64,000 bases of DNA from an uncultured Acetatifactor sp. (GTDB taxonomy: Bacteria; Bacillota; Clostridia; Lachnospirales; Lachnospiraceae). Below are positions 53,908 to 62,767 of the stretch, one piece after another. Position 1 is the first letter of the stretch. Each line of letters begins with the position of its first letter. The notes beneath the pieces are model-generated. The model was not told the origin of the DNA, made no database searches, and saw nothing but the letters and a program-made list of their open reading frames with translations. Made by a program: the position numbers and the translations under genes. The DNA lies in the NCBI GenBank assembly GCA_947586055.1, contig CANPXL010000002.1, positions 1 to 64,000 on the forward strand, given 5' to 3'.

Positions 53908-55305
53908 TTACCCCTGTTCGTCCAGATACAGCTGCACGCGGTTCTGGATCTTTTCGATCACATCCTCCTTGCTTCTGTCTCCCTCCAGATAATCCGCCGC
54001 TTCCTCATACACAATGTCCAGGATGGCCTCCGTCCGCCTTGGCAGATACCGCGCATCCTCGTAGGCCTCCAATATCTCCTGCTTCGTCTCTTCGTTTAAG
54101 GGCGCATCGATTGCTCCGACTTCACTCAGCTTCGCTGAATACTCCCATGAGGTATTCCAAAGCTCCTTTTGTACCGAATCTCCATAAAAATTCTGTCCGT
54201 CCCGGCTCAAAACAAAGGACAGAAAGGCGTACGCTCCCTCCAGATGCTCCGTGTTCGCATTGATCATCATAACATCTGTCGCTGCAGCCGAACAGGTGTA
54301 ATGAGGGCCGTCGTCAAAGAAACAGCCCACGATGACGTTTCCCGGAAACTGCGACGATATTTGATAAGACGGCGGCCCCTGAATATGCACGTAGTAATCA
54401 TTCACCACCGGATCATACCCCTTTTTCCCGTCCTCCCGGTATCGCTTCGACACGTCCAGAAACTTGGAAAACAGAGGCCCCGTAAAGTCGCAGGTCTTTT
54501 TTTCCCAGTCGATCATCCCCCAGAGATCCTCCGACCCCTCCAGAAAATATGCAAGGATATATCTCCCTCCCAACGTCGGCATAATAAACGAACCGTGTCC
54601 CGGATACTCCAGCAGAAGATCCGCAAAAGACTCTATATCCTGAGGCGGCTGGCTGTCTCCCAGAACTGCCGCATCCACACAGTAGCCGTCAACCGACATC
54701 TCCGGGACAATCGCATAAATCCGGTCTCCGGAAACCGCATAGGCGTATTCGGGAAAGAAGGTCTCCGTCGTCACGCCGCTCTTTTCCAGATAAGGGGAAA
54801 GATCTACCAGCACGCCGCTGTCCATGATCTCCTGAGTGATGGGAAATACTTCACCGGTCAGAATATCCGGTCCTCCCCCGGCTCCCACTTCCACCGACAG
54901 TCTCTCCCGCATGGTCGCCAATTCATCTCCGGCATAACACGTCCGCAGTTCCACACTGTATTTTGTATTTCTCCTATTGAACTCCGCCACTATATCTTCA
55001 ATGGGATTGGTTGCATTTTCACCGGTGGGCATTATCTCGGTTGCAAGGGTGATCACGGTCTTTTCTTCGGGCTCCGTCTCGCTTTCCGCCGCAGAGCTGT
55101 CCTCTTCCGGCGAGATACTTTCCATTTGACCCCATTTGAGGTTAAACTCCCCGTCGTCGGCGTGATAAAAGATCTCGATGTCCTCCGGCTCCTGAGATTC
55201 CTGCGCCGTCTCTTTGGCGCCGCAGCCGGATAAAAGCAGCGCCGCGGAAGCCAAAAGGGCCATCCCTCTCATCGGTCTTTTTCCCTTTGTCTGATTGTTT
55301 ACCAT
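53908..55305 (-). CDS. Extracellular solute-binding lipoprotein, tandem copy 1
   Basis: Signal peptide with lipobox LLLSGCG; solute-binding fold (DIVAEFNRRNTKYSVELRTCYAGDE...GGGPDILTGEVFPITQEIMDSGVLVDLSPYLEKSG). Confidence 0.88.
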   Translation of the reverse strand: MVNNQTKGKRPMRGMALLASAALLLSGCGAKETAQESQEPEDIEIFYHADDGEFNLKWGQMESISPEEDSSAAESETEPEEKTVITLATEIMPTGENATNPIEDIVAEFNRRNTKYSVELRTCYAGDELATMRERLSVEVGAGGGPDILTGEVFPITQEIMDSGVLVDLSPYLEKSGVTTETFFPEYAYAVSGDRIYAIVPEMSVDGYCVDAAVLGDSQPPQDIESFADLLLEYPGHGSFIMPTLGGRYILAYFLEGSEDLWGMIDWEKKTCDFTGPLFSKFLDVSKRYREDGKKGYDPVVNDYYVHIQGPPSYQISSQFPGNVIVGCFFDDGPHYTCSAAATDVMMINANTEHLEGAYAFLSFVLSRDGQNFYGDSVQKELWNTSWEYSAKLSEVGAIDAPLNEETKQEILEAYEDARYLPRRTEAILDIVYEEAADYLEGDRSKEDVIEKIQNRVQLYLDEQG

Positions 55306-55436
55306 GGCGTTTCCCCCTTTCCCGTTGTCCGTTTTCTGTCCGGTCTTACCGGTTTGATCTTATTATAATACCTATTTTACCCCCCCGGAACAGCCTGTCA
55401 AGTCCGCCGTTTCTTCGGGCCGGTTTCTGTTTCTTA

Positions 55437-56828
55437 TCACCCCTGTTCATCCAGATACAACTGCACGCGGTTCTGGATCTTTTCGACCACGTCCTCCAGT
55501 TTTTGATTTCCCTCCAGATATCCCTCCGCTTCCTCATACACAATGTCCAGGATGGCCTCCGTCCGCCTTGGCAGAAACCGCGCATCCTCGTAGGCGTCCA
55601 ATGTCTCCTGCTTCGTCTCTTCGTTTAAAGGCGCTGAAATCACTCCGTACCCGCCCATATCCGAATAATATTCCCATGCGATATCCCAAAGCTCCTTTTG
55701 TACCGGCTCCGAATAACAATCCTGCCCGTCCTTGCTCAAAACATAAGAGAGAAAAGCGTACGCGCCTTCCAGATGCTCCGTATTCGCGTTGATCATCAGC
55801 GTTCCTCCCGCCGTCCGCTCACACTGATAATGGGGACCGTCGTCAAAATAATACCCCACCGGAACGCTCCCCGGACAGAAGAAAGACAGACTGTAAGACG
55901 GCGGATTCTGCATACTGACAGGATAATCATGCACTACCGGCTCATACCCCTTTTTCCCGTCTTCCCGGTATCGCTTCGACACATCCAGAAGCTTGGAGAA
56001 AAGCGGCCCCGTAAAGTCACAGGTCTTTTTTTCCCAATCGATCATCCCCCAGAGATCCTCCGACCCCTCCAGAAAATACGCAAGGATATATCTCCCTCCC
56101 ATCCTCGGACCAAGAAACGAACCGTGTCCCGGATACTCCAGCAGAAGATCCGCAAAAGACTCTATATCCTGAGGCGGCTGACTGTCTCCCAGAACCTCCG
56201 CATCCACACTATAACCTGTATACAGCGCTGACGGGCTGACTCCGTAGATTCCATCCCCCGAGACAGCGGTGGCATACGCCGGGAAAAATGATTCCAGCGT
56301 CACGCCGCTCTGTTCCAGATAGGGAGTCAGATTCACCAGAACCCCGCTGTCCATGATCTCCTGTGTGATGGGAAATACGTCATTTGTCATAAGATCCGGT
56401 CCGTCTCCCGCTCCGACCTCCACGGACAGCCGGTTTCGCATGGTTTCCAGTTCCTCTCCGTATCGGCATGTCTGCAGTTCCACAGAATATCTGTCGCTTT
56501 CCTGATTAAACTTTGCCACGACCTCGCTGAAATTGTCCCCGCCGGATTCGGACACAAGCGCAAACGTGAGCACAATCTTTTCCTTTTCTCCATCCTGTCG
56601 TCCGCTTTCCTCATCGGAACTGTTTTCCACCGGGGGCGTTTCCCAGCCCAGCCCCGTTGTGTGGCTAAACTCCCCGTCGTCGGCGTGATATAAGATCTCG
56701 ATGTCCTCCGGCTCCTGAGATTCCTGCGCCGTCTCTCCGGTGCCGCAGCCGGATAAAAGCAGCGCCGCGGAAACGAAAAGGGCCATTCCCCCCATCGGTC
56801 TTTTTCTCTTTGTCTGATTGTTTACCAT
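55437..56828 (-). CDS. Extracellular solute-binding lipoprotein, tandem copy 2 (diverged)
   Basis: Lipobox LLLSGCG; paralogue of copies 1/3/4, diverged in the middle and near-identical at both ends. Confidence 0.88.
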   Translation of the reverse strand: MVNNQTKRKRPMGGMALFVSAALLLSGCGTGETAQESQEPEDIEILYHADDGEFSHTTGLGWETPPVENSSDEESGRQDGEKEKIVLTFALVSESGGDNFSEVVAKFNQESDRYSVELQTCRYGEELETMRNRLSVEVGAGDGPDLMTNDVFPITQEIMDSGVLVNLTPYLEQSGVTLESFFPAYATAVSGDGIYGVSPSALYTGYSVDAEVLGDSQPPQDIESFADLLLEYPGHGSFLGPRMGGRYILAYFLEGSEDLWGMIDWEKKTCDFTGPLFSKLLDVSKRYREDGKKGYEPVVHDYPVSMQNPPSYSLSFFCPGSVPVGYYFDDGPHYQCERTAGGTLMINANTEHLEGAYAFLSYVLSKDGQDCYSEPVQKELWDIAWEYYSDMGGYGVISAPLNEETKQETLDAYEDARFLPRRTEAILDIVYEEAEGYLEGNQKLEDVVEKIQNRVQLYLDEQG

Positions 56829-56929
56829 GGCGTTTCCCCCTTTCCCGTTGTCCGTCTTCTGTCCGGTCTTACCGGTTTGATCTTGTTATAATACCTATTT
56901 TACCACCGTAACAGTCCGGATTCCATAAC

Positions 56930-56961
56930 AAAAGTGCCGCAAAAACCTGCTGCGACACTTT
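56930..56961 (-). terminator. Terminator hairpin downstream of copy 3
   Basis: AAAAGTGTCGCAGCAGGTTTTTGCGGCACTTTTGTT on the minus strand. Confidence 0.75.
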
Positions 56962-56980
56962 TACTGAAATCCCTTCCTTA

Positions 56981-58378
56981 TTATCCCTGTTCGTCCAGAT
57001 ACAGCTGCACGCGGTTCTGGATCTTTTCGATCACATCCTCCTTACTTCTGTCTCCTTCCAGATAATCCTCCGCTTCCTCATACACAATGTCCAGGATGGC
57101 CTCCGTCCGCCTTGGCAGAAACCGCGCATCCTCGTAGGCGTCCAGCATCTCCTGCTTTGTCTCTTCGTTTAAGGGCGCATCGATTGCTCCGACTTCGCTC
57201 AGCTTCGCTGAATACTCCCATGAGGTATTCCAGAGTTCCTTTTGTACCGATTCCCCATAAAAGTCCTGTCCGTCCCGGCTCAGAACAAAGGACAGAAAGG
57301 CGTACGCTCCCTCCAGATGCTCCGTGTTCGCATTGATCATCATAACGTCTGAAGCTGCAGCCGAAGCGTTGTAATGAGGGCCGTCGTCAAAGAAATAGCC
57401 CACGATGACGTTTCCCGGAAACTGCGACGATATTTGATAGGACGGCGGCCCCTGGATATGCACGAAGTAATCATTCACCACCGAATCATACCCCTTTTTC
57501 CCGTCCTCCCGGTATCGCTTCGACACGTCCAGGAACTTGGAAAAAAGCGGTCCCGTAAAGTCGCAGGTCTTTTTTTCCCAGTCGATCATCCCCCAGAGAT
57601 CCTCCGACCCCTCCAGAAAATACGCAAGGATATATCTCCCTCCCGTCATCGGGCCAAGAAATGAACCGTGTCCCGGATATTCCAGCAGAAGATCCGCAAA
57701 AGACTCTATATCCTGAGGCGGCTGACTATCTCCCAGAACTGCCGCATCCACACAGTAGCCGCGAATCGACATCTCCGGGACAATCCCATAAATCCGGTCT
57801 CCGGAAACCGCATAGGCGTATTCGGGAAAAAAGGTCTCCGGCGTCACGCCGCTCTTTTCCAGATAAGGGGAAAGATCCACCAGCACGCCGCTGTCCATGA
57901 TCTCCTGAGTGATTGGAAATACATCTCCTGTCAGAATATCCGGTCCTCCCCCGGCTCCCACTTCCACCGACAGTCTCTCCCGCATGGTACCCAATTCTTC
58001 TCCGCTATAACACGTCCGCAGTTCCACACTGTATTTTGTATTTCTCCTATTGAACTCCGCCACCACATCTTCAATGAGATTGGTCTCATTTTCACCGGTG
58101 GGCATCACCACGGTCGCAAGAGTGATCACGGTTTTTTCTTCGGGCTCCGTCTCGCTTTCCGACGCAGAACTGCCCTCTTCCGGCGAGATACTTTCCATTT
58201 CACCCCATTTGCGGTTAAATTCCCCGTCGTCGGCGTGATATAAGATCTCGATGTCCTCCGGCTCCTGAGATTCCTGCGCCGTCTCTCCGGCGCCACAGCC
58301 GGATAAAAGCAGCGCCGCGGAAGCCAAAAGGGCCATCCCCCTCATCGGTCTTTTTCTCTTTGTGTGATTGTTTACCAT
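56981..58378 (-). CDS. Extracellular solute-binding lipoprotein, tandem copy 3
   Basis: Near-identical to copy 1; lipobox LLLSGCG. Confidence 0.88.
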   Translation of the reverse strand: MVNNHTKRKRPMRGMALLASAALLLSGCGAGETAQESQEPEDIEILYHADDGEFNRKWGEMESISPEEGSSASESETEPEEKTVITLATVVMPTGENETNLIEDVVAEFNRRNTKYSVELRTCYSGEELGTMRERLSVEVGAGGGPDILTGDVFPITQEIMDSGVLVDLSPYLEKSGVTPETFFPEYAYAVSGDRIYGIVPEMSIRGYCVDAAVLGDSQPPQDIESFADLLLEYPGHGSFLGPMTGGRYILAYFLEGSEDLWGMIDWEKKTCDFTGPLFSKFLDVSKRYREDGKKGYDSVVNDYFVHIQGPPSYQISSQFPGNVIVGYFFDDGPHYNASAAASDVMMINANTEHLEGAYAFLSFVLSRDGQDFYGESVQKELWNTSWEYSAKLSEVGAIDAPLNEETKQEMLDAYEDARFLPRRTEAILDIVYEEAEDYLEGDRSKEDVIEKIQNRVQLYLDEQG

Positions 58379-58616
58379 GGCGTTTCCCCCTTTCCCGTTA
58401 TCCGTTTCCTGTCCAGTCTTACCGGTTTGATCTTATTATAATACCTATTTTACCCCCCCGGGACAGCCTGTCAAGTCCGCCGTTTCTTCGGACCGGTTTC
58501 CGTTTCTTCAGACCGGTTTTCTGTCTCCACAAATTCTGCCTTACCAGAAATGCCATGATTTTTGTTTCCCCATGCTAATTCCCACGCTGCGGTATGTCTT
58601 CATGTTCTTCCATAGC

Positions 58617-58650
58617 AAAAGTGCCGCAAAAACCTGCTGCGACACTTTTA
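58617..58650 (-). terminator. Terminator hairpin downstream of copy 4
   Basis: AAAAGTGTCGCAGCAGGTTTTTGCGGCACTTTTG, same element as at 56930. Confidence 0.75.
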
Positions 58651-58667
58651 TCGAAATCCCTTCCTTA

Positions 58668-60068
58668 TTATCCCTGTTCGTCCAGATACAGCTGCACGCG
58701 GTTCTGGATCTTTTCGATCACATCCTCCTTGCTTCTGTCTCCTTCCAGATAATCCGCCGCTTCCTCATACACAATGTCCAGGATGGCCTCCGTCCGCCTT
58801 GGCAGAAACCGCGCATCCTCGTAGGCGTCTAATATCTCCTGCTTTGTCTCTTCGTTTAACGGCGCATCAATTGTTCCGACTTCGCTCAGCTTCGCTGAAT
58901 ACTCCCACGAGGTATCCCAGAGCTCCTTTTGCATCGGCTCTCCATAAAAATTCTGTCCGTCCCGGCTCAGAACAAAGGACAGAAAGGCGTACGCTCCCTC
59001 CAGATGCTCCGTGTTCGCATTGATCATCATAACGTCTGTAGCTGCAGCCGAAGTGATGTAATGAGGGCCGTCGTCAAAGAAACAGCCCACGAAGACGTTC
59101 CCCGGAAACTGCGACGATATTTGATAGGACGGCGGCCCCTGGATATGCACGTAGTAATCATTCACCACCGGATCATACCCCTTTTTCCCGTCCTCCCGGT
59201 ATCGCTTCGACACGTCCAGAAACTTGGAAAACAGAGGCCCCGTAAAGTCGCAGGTCTTTTTTTCCCAGTCGATCATCCCCCAGAGATCCTCCGACCCCTC
59301 CAGAAAATACGCAAGGATATATCTCCCTCCCATCATCGGGCCAAGAAATGAACCGTGTCCCGGATATTCCAGCAGAAGATCCACAAAAGACTCTATATCC
59401 TGAGGCGGCTGACTGTCTCCCAGAACTTCCGCATCCACACAGTAGCCGCGAACCAACATCTGCGGGACAATTCCATAAATCCGGTCTCCGGAAACCGCAT
59501 AGGCGTATTCGGGAAAGAAGGTCTCCGGCGTCACACCGCTCTTTTCCAGATAAGGGGAAAGGTCCACCAGTACGCCGCTGTCCATGATCTCCTGAGTGAT
59601 GGGAAATACTTCACCGGTCAAAATATCCGGTCCTCCCCCGGCTCCCACTTCCACCGACAGTCTATCCCGCATGGTCGCCAATTCATCTCCGGCATAACAC
59701 GTCCGCAGTTCCACACTGTATTTTGTATTTCTCCTATTAAACTCCGCCACCACATCTTCAATGGTATTGGTCGCATTTTCACCGGTGGGCATCACCTCGG
59801 TTGCAAGAGTGATCACAGTCTTTTCTTCGGGCTCCGTCTCACTTTCCGCCGCAGAACTGACCTCTTCCGACGAAATACTTCCCATTTCACCCCATTTGCG
59901 GTTAAACTCCCCGTCGTCGGCGTGATAAAAGATCTCGATGTCCTCCGGCTCCTGAGATTCCTGCGCCGTCTCTCCGGCGCCGCAGCCGGATGAAAGCAGC
60001 AGCGCGGCGGAAGCCAAAAGGGCCATCCCCCCCATCGGTCCTTTTCTCTTTGTGTGATTGTTTACCAT
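58668..60068 (-). CDS. Extracellular solute-binding lipoprotein, tandem copy 4
   Basis: Near-identical to copy 1; lipobox LLLSSGCG. Confidence 0.88.
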   Translation of the reverse strand: MVNNHTKRKGPMGGMALLASAALLLSSGCGAGETAQESQEPEDIEIFYHADDGEFNRKWGEMGSISSEEVSSAAESETEPEEKTVITLATEVMPTGENATNTIEDVVAEFNRRNTKYSVELRTCYAGDELATMRDRLSVEVGAGGGPDILTGEVFPITQEIMDSGVLVDLSPYLEKSGVTPETFFPEYAYAVSGDRIYGIVPQMLVRGYCVDAEVLGDSQPPQDIESFVDLLLEYPGHGSFLGPMMGGRYILAYFLEGSEDLWGMIDWEKKTCDFTGPLFSKFLDVSKRYREDGKKGYDPVVNDYYVHIQGPPSYQISSQFPGNVFVGCFFDDGPHYITSAAATDVMMINANTEHLEGAYAFLSFVLSRDGQNFYGEPMQKELWDTSWEYSAKLSEVGTIDAPLNEETKQEILDAYEDARFLPRRTEAILDIVYEEAADYLEGDRSKEDVIEKIQNRVQLYLDEQG

Positions 60069-60647: not shown

Positions 60648-60698
60648 CCATAACAAAAGTGTCACAAAAAAATCTTTTTTGTGACACTTTTGTTATGG
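60648..60698. repeat. 24-bp perfect inverted repeat with 3-nt loop
   Basis: CCATAACAAAAGTGTCACAAAAAA-ATC-TTTTTTGTGACACTTTTGTTATGG. Confidence 0.9.
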
Positions 60699-60767
60699 TC
60701 ATTTATTTCCTCTGTATTATAATATTATATATGGTTTTCTATAAAACAGCAGAAAGGAGCAAATTAT

Positions 60768-60926
60768 ATGAAAAATAAAATTCCCCTTTTAAAACGAATA
60801 ACAGTTCTGCTGTCCCCGCATGCGACCCTCAATACCGTTATCCCTTTTACTATGTGTGATATATCCGGACCGCCCGAAGCGTCTGTTCAATCCGATTACA
60901 TAAAAGATGTCACACATACTTTTTAA
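60768..60926 (+). CDS. 52-aa small ORF convergent with the dual-HTH regulator; candidate signalling peptide precursor
   Basis: gaaaggag RBS, ATG 60768, TAA 60924-60926: MKNKIPLLKRITVLLSPHATLNTVIPFTMCDISGPPEASVQSDYIKDVTHTF; TATAAT-like -10 near 60718. Confidence 0.5.
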   Translation: MKNKIPLLKRITVLLSPHATLNTVIPFTMCDISGPPEASVQSDYIKDVTHTF

Positions 60927-62767
60927 TTATCATAAAACTTCTTCCAATGCTGTTCCAAAAAGATCACTTCATCCGAATCAGAAAATAAATATGCAAGCGA
61001 AAGTGCCGCCTTCATAAAACAACGGCGTTTTTCTTTGTCATCGCCCTCCTGCAGCTGTTCCATATTCCATGTGCGGTCATATAAGGTGAGCCGAAGCACA
61101 TCCGCTTTGCCAGTCACAAGCGCCATCCGGATCGCATTGTCTTCCACCCGAATCGCTTCCGTATATTCCTGCCGGTTTCCCAGCAAATCTCCTAAGTTCC
61201 GCAGCGCTCTTTCATAATTATCCATACCTTTGCGCCTTGCCGGATCCAGCCTATCATAGTACTGTAATAAAAGACGAAGCCACACAATACCTCTGTCCCG
61301 TTGCCCAACCTTTTCACAACCGTAAGAAATCCCATTGACAATAGTCGCTTCTGCTTTTGTAAAGTACCAGGAGCCTAAATGCTCCGGCTCTTTGTCCGGC
61401 ACCGTTATATGTAATGCATCCCATAGTCTTTTCTGCTCTGTTTCTGCATCTATCTTTCCCGCTCCGTACAGCGTCAGCGTCTCCAGGGCCAGCAGATACT
61501 GATCCGCATACCGGCTATGCCCCGTTTCTCTGACCAGCTTTTTTACCAGCGGCAGCGCTTCTTCATTCCGGCCAAAGCGGGTCAGCATATTGATCTCTTC
61601 CACCGTCCTGTGAAGCCCCGCATTCCCTGTCTGGGCGGACATCACGATACTTCCCCCCGGCAGATTCAGTTTTTTCAGAAGTCCTGTCAGGACGCCCTGC
61701 TTCGGAACTACCGCGCCGCGCTCGATTCTGGAAACCGTCACCGGATTGCAGACGCCCTCCGCCAGCGCTTCCTGCGTCATTCCAAGAGCCTGCCGCCTTC
61801 CTTTTATCAGGTCGGCCAGCACATAAGTTTCCTCCACATCATCCGTCAGATACCAGATCCATTCCCCGGGCCTTACATCGTATTCTCCATACAGCCACCG
61901 CAGGGAAGCGCATAGCTGCTCCGCACGGCTTCTCTCCTGATGCGCGCCGTCCGCCGGAAGGTGCCGCAGCCGGTATTCCGTAAGCTCCCGCAGGTAAAAC
62001 AGACTCCCCTGACGCTTGATCTCTTCCATGCACGATGCATATATCCCGGCGCTTTCGTCCGTCTCTCTCCCGCTTTGTTCCAAAAGCACAAGAATCCGAT
62101 AACCGATCTGAACAGAAAATGCGGCTTTTTCCCGCCCCAGGGACTCCCTGCTCAGCTGCCCGAGTATCTTTCGGTACCCGGACAACGCCTCCCCGCTCTT
62201 TCCCGTTTCTTCCAGTATCCGCAGATACAGGCATTTTATGGACAATTCTATATGGCTCATCCGCAGGGGCTGCGTCCCCTCCAGCAGCCGCGCGGGCATC
62301 GTAACGCTCCACGCCTGCCGCAGCTTTTCAGCTATCCGCTCCAAATCCCCGGCCGTTTCCCTCCGCGCTCTGAAATCCCATACGGATTCCGCCAGCATCC
62401 GGAACTGTTCATGCAGTCTGCTCTGACCCTTCGTCAGGCGGATGTATTCTTCCCGGGCCCTCCGATATTCCCTTTCCTGTCCGGAGTCCACCGCCGCGGC
62501 CAGATCTTCTCTGGCGCAAAGCCATTCCTGCTCCCGTGTGTTCAGAAAATACAAAAAGCGCTCCTGCGACACCCCAAGCCGCTGCAGCAGCGCTTCCGAC
62601 ACAATTTTTTCACAGCCCCTCTCCCCTGTTTCGATCCGCGCCAGATAACTGCGCGAGCAGACACCCGCGCAGAGCTGCTGGGCACTGACGCCCGCCCGGA
62701 TGCGCTCCCGGCCGATGATCGTTCCGATCTGACTGTATTCCGTTTCCCTGTTCTCTTCTGTATTCAC
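60923..62767 (-). CDS. Transcriptional regulator with two XRE-type HTH domains and TPR-like helical repeats
   Basis: HTH1 IGTIIGRERIRAGVSAQQLCAGVCSRSYLARIETGER; HTH2 LADLIKGRRQALGMTQEALAEGVCNPVTVSRIERGAVVP; remainder alpha-helical. Confidence 0.82.
   Translation of the reverse strand: MNTEENRETEYSQIGTIIGRERIRAGVSAQQLCAGVCSRSYLARIETGERGCEKIVSEALLQRLGVSQERFLYFLNTREQEWLCAREDLAAAVDSGQEREYRRAREEYIRLTKGQSRLHEQFRMLAESVWDFRARRETAGDLERIAEKLRQAWSVTMPARLLEGTQPLRMSHIELSIKCLYLRILEETGKSGEALSGYRKILGQLSRESLGREKAAFSVQIGYRILVLLEQSGRETDESAGIYASCMEEIKRQGSLFYLRELTEYRLRHLPADGAHQERSRAEQLCASLRWLYGEYDVRPGEWIWYLTDDVEETYVLADLIKGRRQALGMTQEALAEGVCNPVTVSRIERGAVVPKQGVLTGLLKKLNLPGGSIVMSAQTGNAGLHRTVEEINMLTRFGRNEEALPLVKKLVRETGHSRYADQYLLALETLTLYGAGKIDAETEQKRLWDALHITVPDKEPEHLGSWYFTKAEATIVNGISYGCEKVGQRDRGIVWLRLLLQYYDRLDPARRKGMDNYERALRNLGDLLGNRQEYTEAIRVEDNAIRMALVTGKADVLRLTLYDRTWNMEQLQEGDDKEKRRCFMKAALSLAYLFSDSDEVIFLEQHWKKFYDN

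Follow-up and report, generated by a model that had tools for sequence, protein, structure and literature searches.

The closest described relatives of the locus analysed here are the peptide pheromone systems of the RRNPP class. The best match in both sequence and fold is PlcR–PapR of the Bacillus cereus group, with which the locus shares a receptor composed of HTH and TPR domains and a neighbouring, leader-bearing propeptide of about 50 amino acids. The streptococcal Rgg/SHP systems, which include convergent receptor–peptide pairs, are similar in the adjacency of receptor and peptide genes and in a palindrome at the peptide promoter. For clostridia, RRNPP receptors with a small, mostly unannotated leader-bearing ORF downstream are known as Qsr/Qsp in Clostridium acetobutylicum, according to excerpts of the published account (PMC7376267). 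The program RRNPP_detector takes receptors of 250–500 residues only (PMC10075063). The receptor presented below has reached 614 residues by tandem duplication and falls outside this range, so that a double-receptor branch would have been filtered out; the rule is a survey filter and not a mechanistic criterion. We found no mention of Lachnospiraceae or of double-HTH receptors in the RRNPP surveys consulted, and no earlier description of such systems in Lachnospiraceae in open-access full text.

The window, a stretch of 64,000 nucleotides from an uncultured Acetatifactor species of the Lachnospiraceae, contains a locus which is probably a self-contained peptide pheromone circuit of the RRNPP/PlcR–PapR type with a duplicated receptor (Table 1). 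RRNPP-like peptide sensing had been proposed in a preliminary description, and the gene geometry, the codon selection in relatives, the homology to PlcR and the predicted fold all lend support to it. In such a circuit, the propeptide would be exported and trimmed to a short C-terminal peptide. An oligopeptide permease would take this peptide up again, and the TPR domain(s) of the regulator would bind it. The regulator would then act at the palindrome beside the propeptide promoter on the propeptide gene itself, giving positive feedback, and possibly also on the divergent gene for a secreted protein. The genome encodes an OppA-type protein as well as an M50 protease, both of widespread kinds.

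Table 1. Features of the receptor–peptide locus (positions in the window).
Feature	Position	Strand	Basis or remark
Secreted CxxC protein, 109 aa	60201–60530	−	Divergent from propeptide across palindrome; candidate output gene
Perfect inverted repeat, 24-bp arms CCATAACAAAAGTGTCACAAAAAA	60648–60698		Probable operator, possibly also terminator of regulator mRNA
Sigma-70-like promoter TGGTCA-16 nt-TATAAT for propeptide	60696–60723	+	Consensus match only
Ribosome-binding site AAAGGAG	60753–60759	+	8 nt 5' of propeptide ATG; sequence
Candidate propeptide ORF, 52 aa	60768–60926	+	Sequence; positional conservation across family
Duplicated PlcR-like receptor/regulator, 614 aa, GTG start	60923–62767	−	Pfam, AlphaFold2, profile and half alignments
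TPR/RNPP_C-like putative peptide-binding domain (residues 391–591)	60995–61597	−	Pfam; PlcR profile match
HTH 2 (residues 317–371)	61655–61819	−	HTH_31, E 2e-16
TPR-like helical repeats 1 (residues 77–295)	61883–62539	−	Predicted secondary structure
HTH 1 (residues 14–63)	62579–62728	−	Predicted secondary structure; alignment to second half

The two HTHs and TPR-like helices noticed earlier in the regulator could be confirmed. An XRE-type HTH is present in two copies, as revealed by Pfam (HTH_31/HTH_3), structure and half alignment, and the AlphaFold2 model has the order HTH-TPR-HTH-TPR (pLDDT 87, pTM 0.87). The RNPP_C match of the C-terminal domain (E 2.4e-5) lies below the Pfam cut-off, which is exceeded by the relative L020. 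Compared with PlcR, the C-terminal half of the receptor family profile gave an E-value of 3.7e-21. The top fold matches in the PDB are PlcR with PapR, one of them also with DNA; ComR and Rgg2 are lower in the list, and sequence similarity to Rgg2 is confined to profile positions 305–403.

The N- and C-terminal halves of the receptor are paralogous (hhalign E 2.6e-27). Adjacent two-gene versions also exist, for example at L104, L077 and L079. In a quick tree of the halves, which contains several long branches, all C-halves group with the split C-units, while the N-halves and split N-units are found on the other side. Because the N- and C-units separate in this way, a PlcR-like unit was probably duplicated in tandem once, long ago, and this event gave rise to both the fused proteins and the split versions. 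The same genome also encodes a single-unit receptor paralogue of 320 residues (L121, G000 contig 13:70107–70979), beside which no convergent peptide gene is recognisable.

The preliminary description had assigned a well-placed ribosome-binding site and ATG to a previously unannotated 52-residue ORF, the stop codon of which overlaps that of the convergent regulator gene by 4 nt. All of this was found in the sequence. The encoded peptide has a basic N-terminus and a tail ending in FTMCDISGPPEASVQSDYIKDVTHTF; its hydrophobic stretch is modest (hydrophobicity 1.61, among the lowest of the family, for which 2.5–3.3 is typical). A direct homology search of 295 relatives with this ORF returned chance-level matches only. 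The weak leader and the missing homologues would suit an ORF that is open by chance, or left over from decay, within the 3' part of the regulator gene.

Receptor homologues were gathered from contigs of the genus, the family and GTDB and from additionally fetched loci, which yielded about 100 distinct receptor ORFs. Their 3' flanks were searched mechanically for an ORF of 35–80 residues having an ATG, a Shine–Dalgarno sequence, Lys or Arg within the first 12 residues, a hydrophobic 11-mer scoring at least 1.5, and a stop codon not more than 25 nt from that of the receptor. A convergent leader-bearing ORF was detected at 44 of 95 receptors and at none of 327 other genes from the same loci (Fisher's test, 2e-33). 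Among receptors of at least 560 residues the count was 35 of 59. The ORFs found are 45–76 residues long, preceded by a ribosome-binding site, and start with a basic/hydrophobic leader. The 4-nt overlap of the stop codons as in the window is the modal offset, occurring in 23 of the 44 pairs. Relaxed inspection added at least four more loci (L072, L081, L097 and L105). About 20 genus codes are represented among the loci with the pair. Outside the family, but within the class, receptor locus L160 likewise carries such an ORF. No clear convergent ORF was found at roughly one-third of the dual receptors.

What is conserved across the pairs is the position, length, leader and ribosome-binding site of the ORF, not its sequence. 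The expectation that the small ORF recurs beside homologous regulators thus held for its placement and architecture but failed at the sequence level. Such a pattern is expected of fast-evolving pheromones. The loss of the gene in the nearest orthologous locus, L010 (62% identical; L010:1390–1500), where a single arm of the palindrome is kept, again fits a chance or decayed frame. This interpretation is nevertheless improbable in view of the count at other receptors, the identical overlap at 23 loci, and the promoter, ribosome-binding site and intact palindrome in the window. Apparently, the L010 receptor is an orphan. The two receptors of locus L099 have a palindrome with CATGACG arms after them but no recognisable propeptide; these are possible further orphans. 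We regard it as fairly likely that the ORF in the window is a propeptide of the pheromone type, and we are surer of this for the family than for the window's own copy with its weak leader.

Analysis of codon substitutions, suggested earlier as a check, revealed a coding signature in ORFs of relatives. These tests cover the pairs L015/L017 and L013/L014, the window ORF being without a homologue. In L015/L017, pN/pS is 0.10 for leader codons 1–27 (p 2e-5) and 0.59 for the tail. In L013/L014, the C-terminal SDVPHNVRAPYP, a stretch of 12 codons picked after inspection, has eight synonymous and no nonsynonymous substitutions (p 3e-7), the remainder of the ORF having a ratio of 1.08. By the evidence of these substitution patterns, the ORFs of relatives are shown to be translated; purifying selection acts on the leaders and, in L013/L014, on the C-terminal 12 residues. 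The tail is preserved in some lineages and diversified in others, as is the pattern in pheromones. A core of the form hydrophobic-x-x-[CYF]-[SGD], a motif defined post hoc, occurs in 17 of 51 peptide tails compared with 2.2 expected from shuffling, and is a candidate recognition element. The tail of the window peptide fits this core with FTMCD.

The product of the small ORF might instead be an effector that is secreted, or a toxin-like peptide acting on membranes, in either case controlled by the regulator and not its signal. From general knowledge, a small ORF with a hydrophobic leader, antisense to the mRNA of its neighbour, would resemble type I toxin arrangements, and small secreted proteins do adjoin some of the receptor loci. 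We consider this unlikely, as the receptor is homologous to a known peptide receptor, PlcR, and the tails are polar and often acidic. Moreover, leaders are conserved while tails diversify, which is typical of pheromones, and the L013/L014 peptides lack a strong hydrophobic segment, yet retain their C-terminal 12 residues.

A resemblance to AgrD, based on the single Cys followed by a short tail, had also been noticed. It was not upheld, and a cyclic autoinducer peptide of this kind is very improbable. The sole AgrB homologue of the genome is encoded on another contig than the receptor (G000 contig 34:1445–1957), the adjacent receptor is PlcR-like and not a histidine kinase, and the peptides of the family bear N-terminal leaders that look cleavable. 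The genome probably contains a separate Agr-type peptide system.

The secreted CxxC protein did not show any match in Pfam or NCBIfam. Weak similarity (15.8 bits) links it to small secreted proteins encoded next to the receptor pairs at L103 and L064, both from one other genome; with a similarity this low and restricted to these two loci, we rejected it as a common output of the family. Further along the minus strand (53908–60068), four closely similar extracellular solute-binding lipoproteins of about 465 residues are encoded in tandem, with no permease directly adjoining. Repeats between these genes resemble one arm of the palindrome. They were considered as extra operators and tentatively rejected, since their constant distance is to the stop codon of the upstream gene and not to the next promoter, for which reason they look like terminators.

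The right end of the palindrome overlaps the −35 box of the propeptide promoter. Within the genome of the window, the full motif occurs once for the pattern searched. Palindromes in relatives are typically located 40–90 nt upstream of the propeptide ATG, and a palindrome score of at least 16 was obtained upstream of 23 of 46 propeptides compared with 11 of 293 control genes. Long palindromes with perfect arms occur mostly at receptor loci across the genomes checked. A regulon of extra operator sites was ruled against on these grounds, one stray site in G445 lying between convergent genes.

Judged from the sequence, the palindrome is likely a putative operator read by the double-headed receptor. 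A competing view, to which we give a real but lesser chance, is that it is a bidirectional terminator of the regulator mRNA and not an operator. That mRNA would then run antisense across the entire propeptide gene, and control could be exerted by antisense RNA or transcriptional collision, alongside DNA binding or replacing it. T-rich stretches on the regulator strand of 19 of 31 palindromes agree with this, as do the one-armed relatives just downstream of solute-binding gene stops (56923 and 58610) and a related palindrome which, in another genome (L152), separates two convergent genes. Termination alone, however, has no need for the outer CCAT(A/G)AC, which is retained in many palindromes across genera although the cores have diverged. 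Copies at L063, L073, L089 and L103 have no T-tract, and in the window it is the propeptide −35 box that the right arm adjoins. The terminator question bears on the palindrome and not on the peptide–receptor pair.

Taken as pheromone systems, the double-receptor/peptide pairs are apparently a large, undescribed family of cell-to-cell signalling systems. On balance, we lean slightly towards a large, unrecognised RRNPP branch of the Lachnospiraceae in which PlcR-like receptors, once an ancient tandem pair, became a single polypeptide that binds DNA through two heads and has two pockets for peptides, and the pheromone gene lies tail-to-tail with the receptor gene. If so, one double-headed protein might read a single palindromic site of bipartite structure, or integrate two peptides. 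Members of the Lachnospiraceae rank with the most abundant bacteria of the gut. Dozens of receptor–peptide–palindrome sets are available, some of them in cultured species (Anaerocolumna aminovalerica, Velocimicrobium porci), which makes peptide communication in this family directly testable.

Within the literature searched, a receptor in which DNA-binding and peptide-type domains are each present twice would be mechanistically new for the RRNPP class. The SHPs of streptococci are shorter than the peptides described here and use another export route, and Rgg receptors are single. For Qsr/Qsp, the excerpts of the account mention neither a doubled receptor nor a convergent arrangement (PMC7376267). 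Compared with PlcR–PapR, the receptor of the window is doubled, with two HTH-TPR units in 614 residues against about 285 in PlcR. The propeptide gene is convergent with overlapping stop codons, the host belongs to the Lachnospiraceae, and the palindrome is long, with CCAT(A/G)AC at its outer ends.
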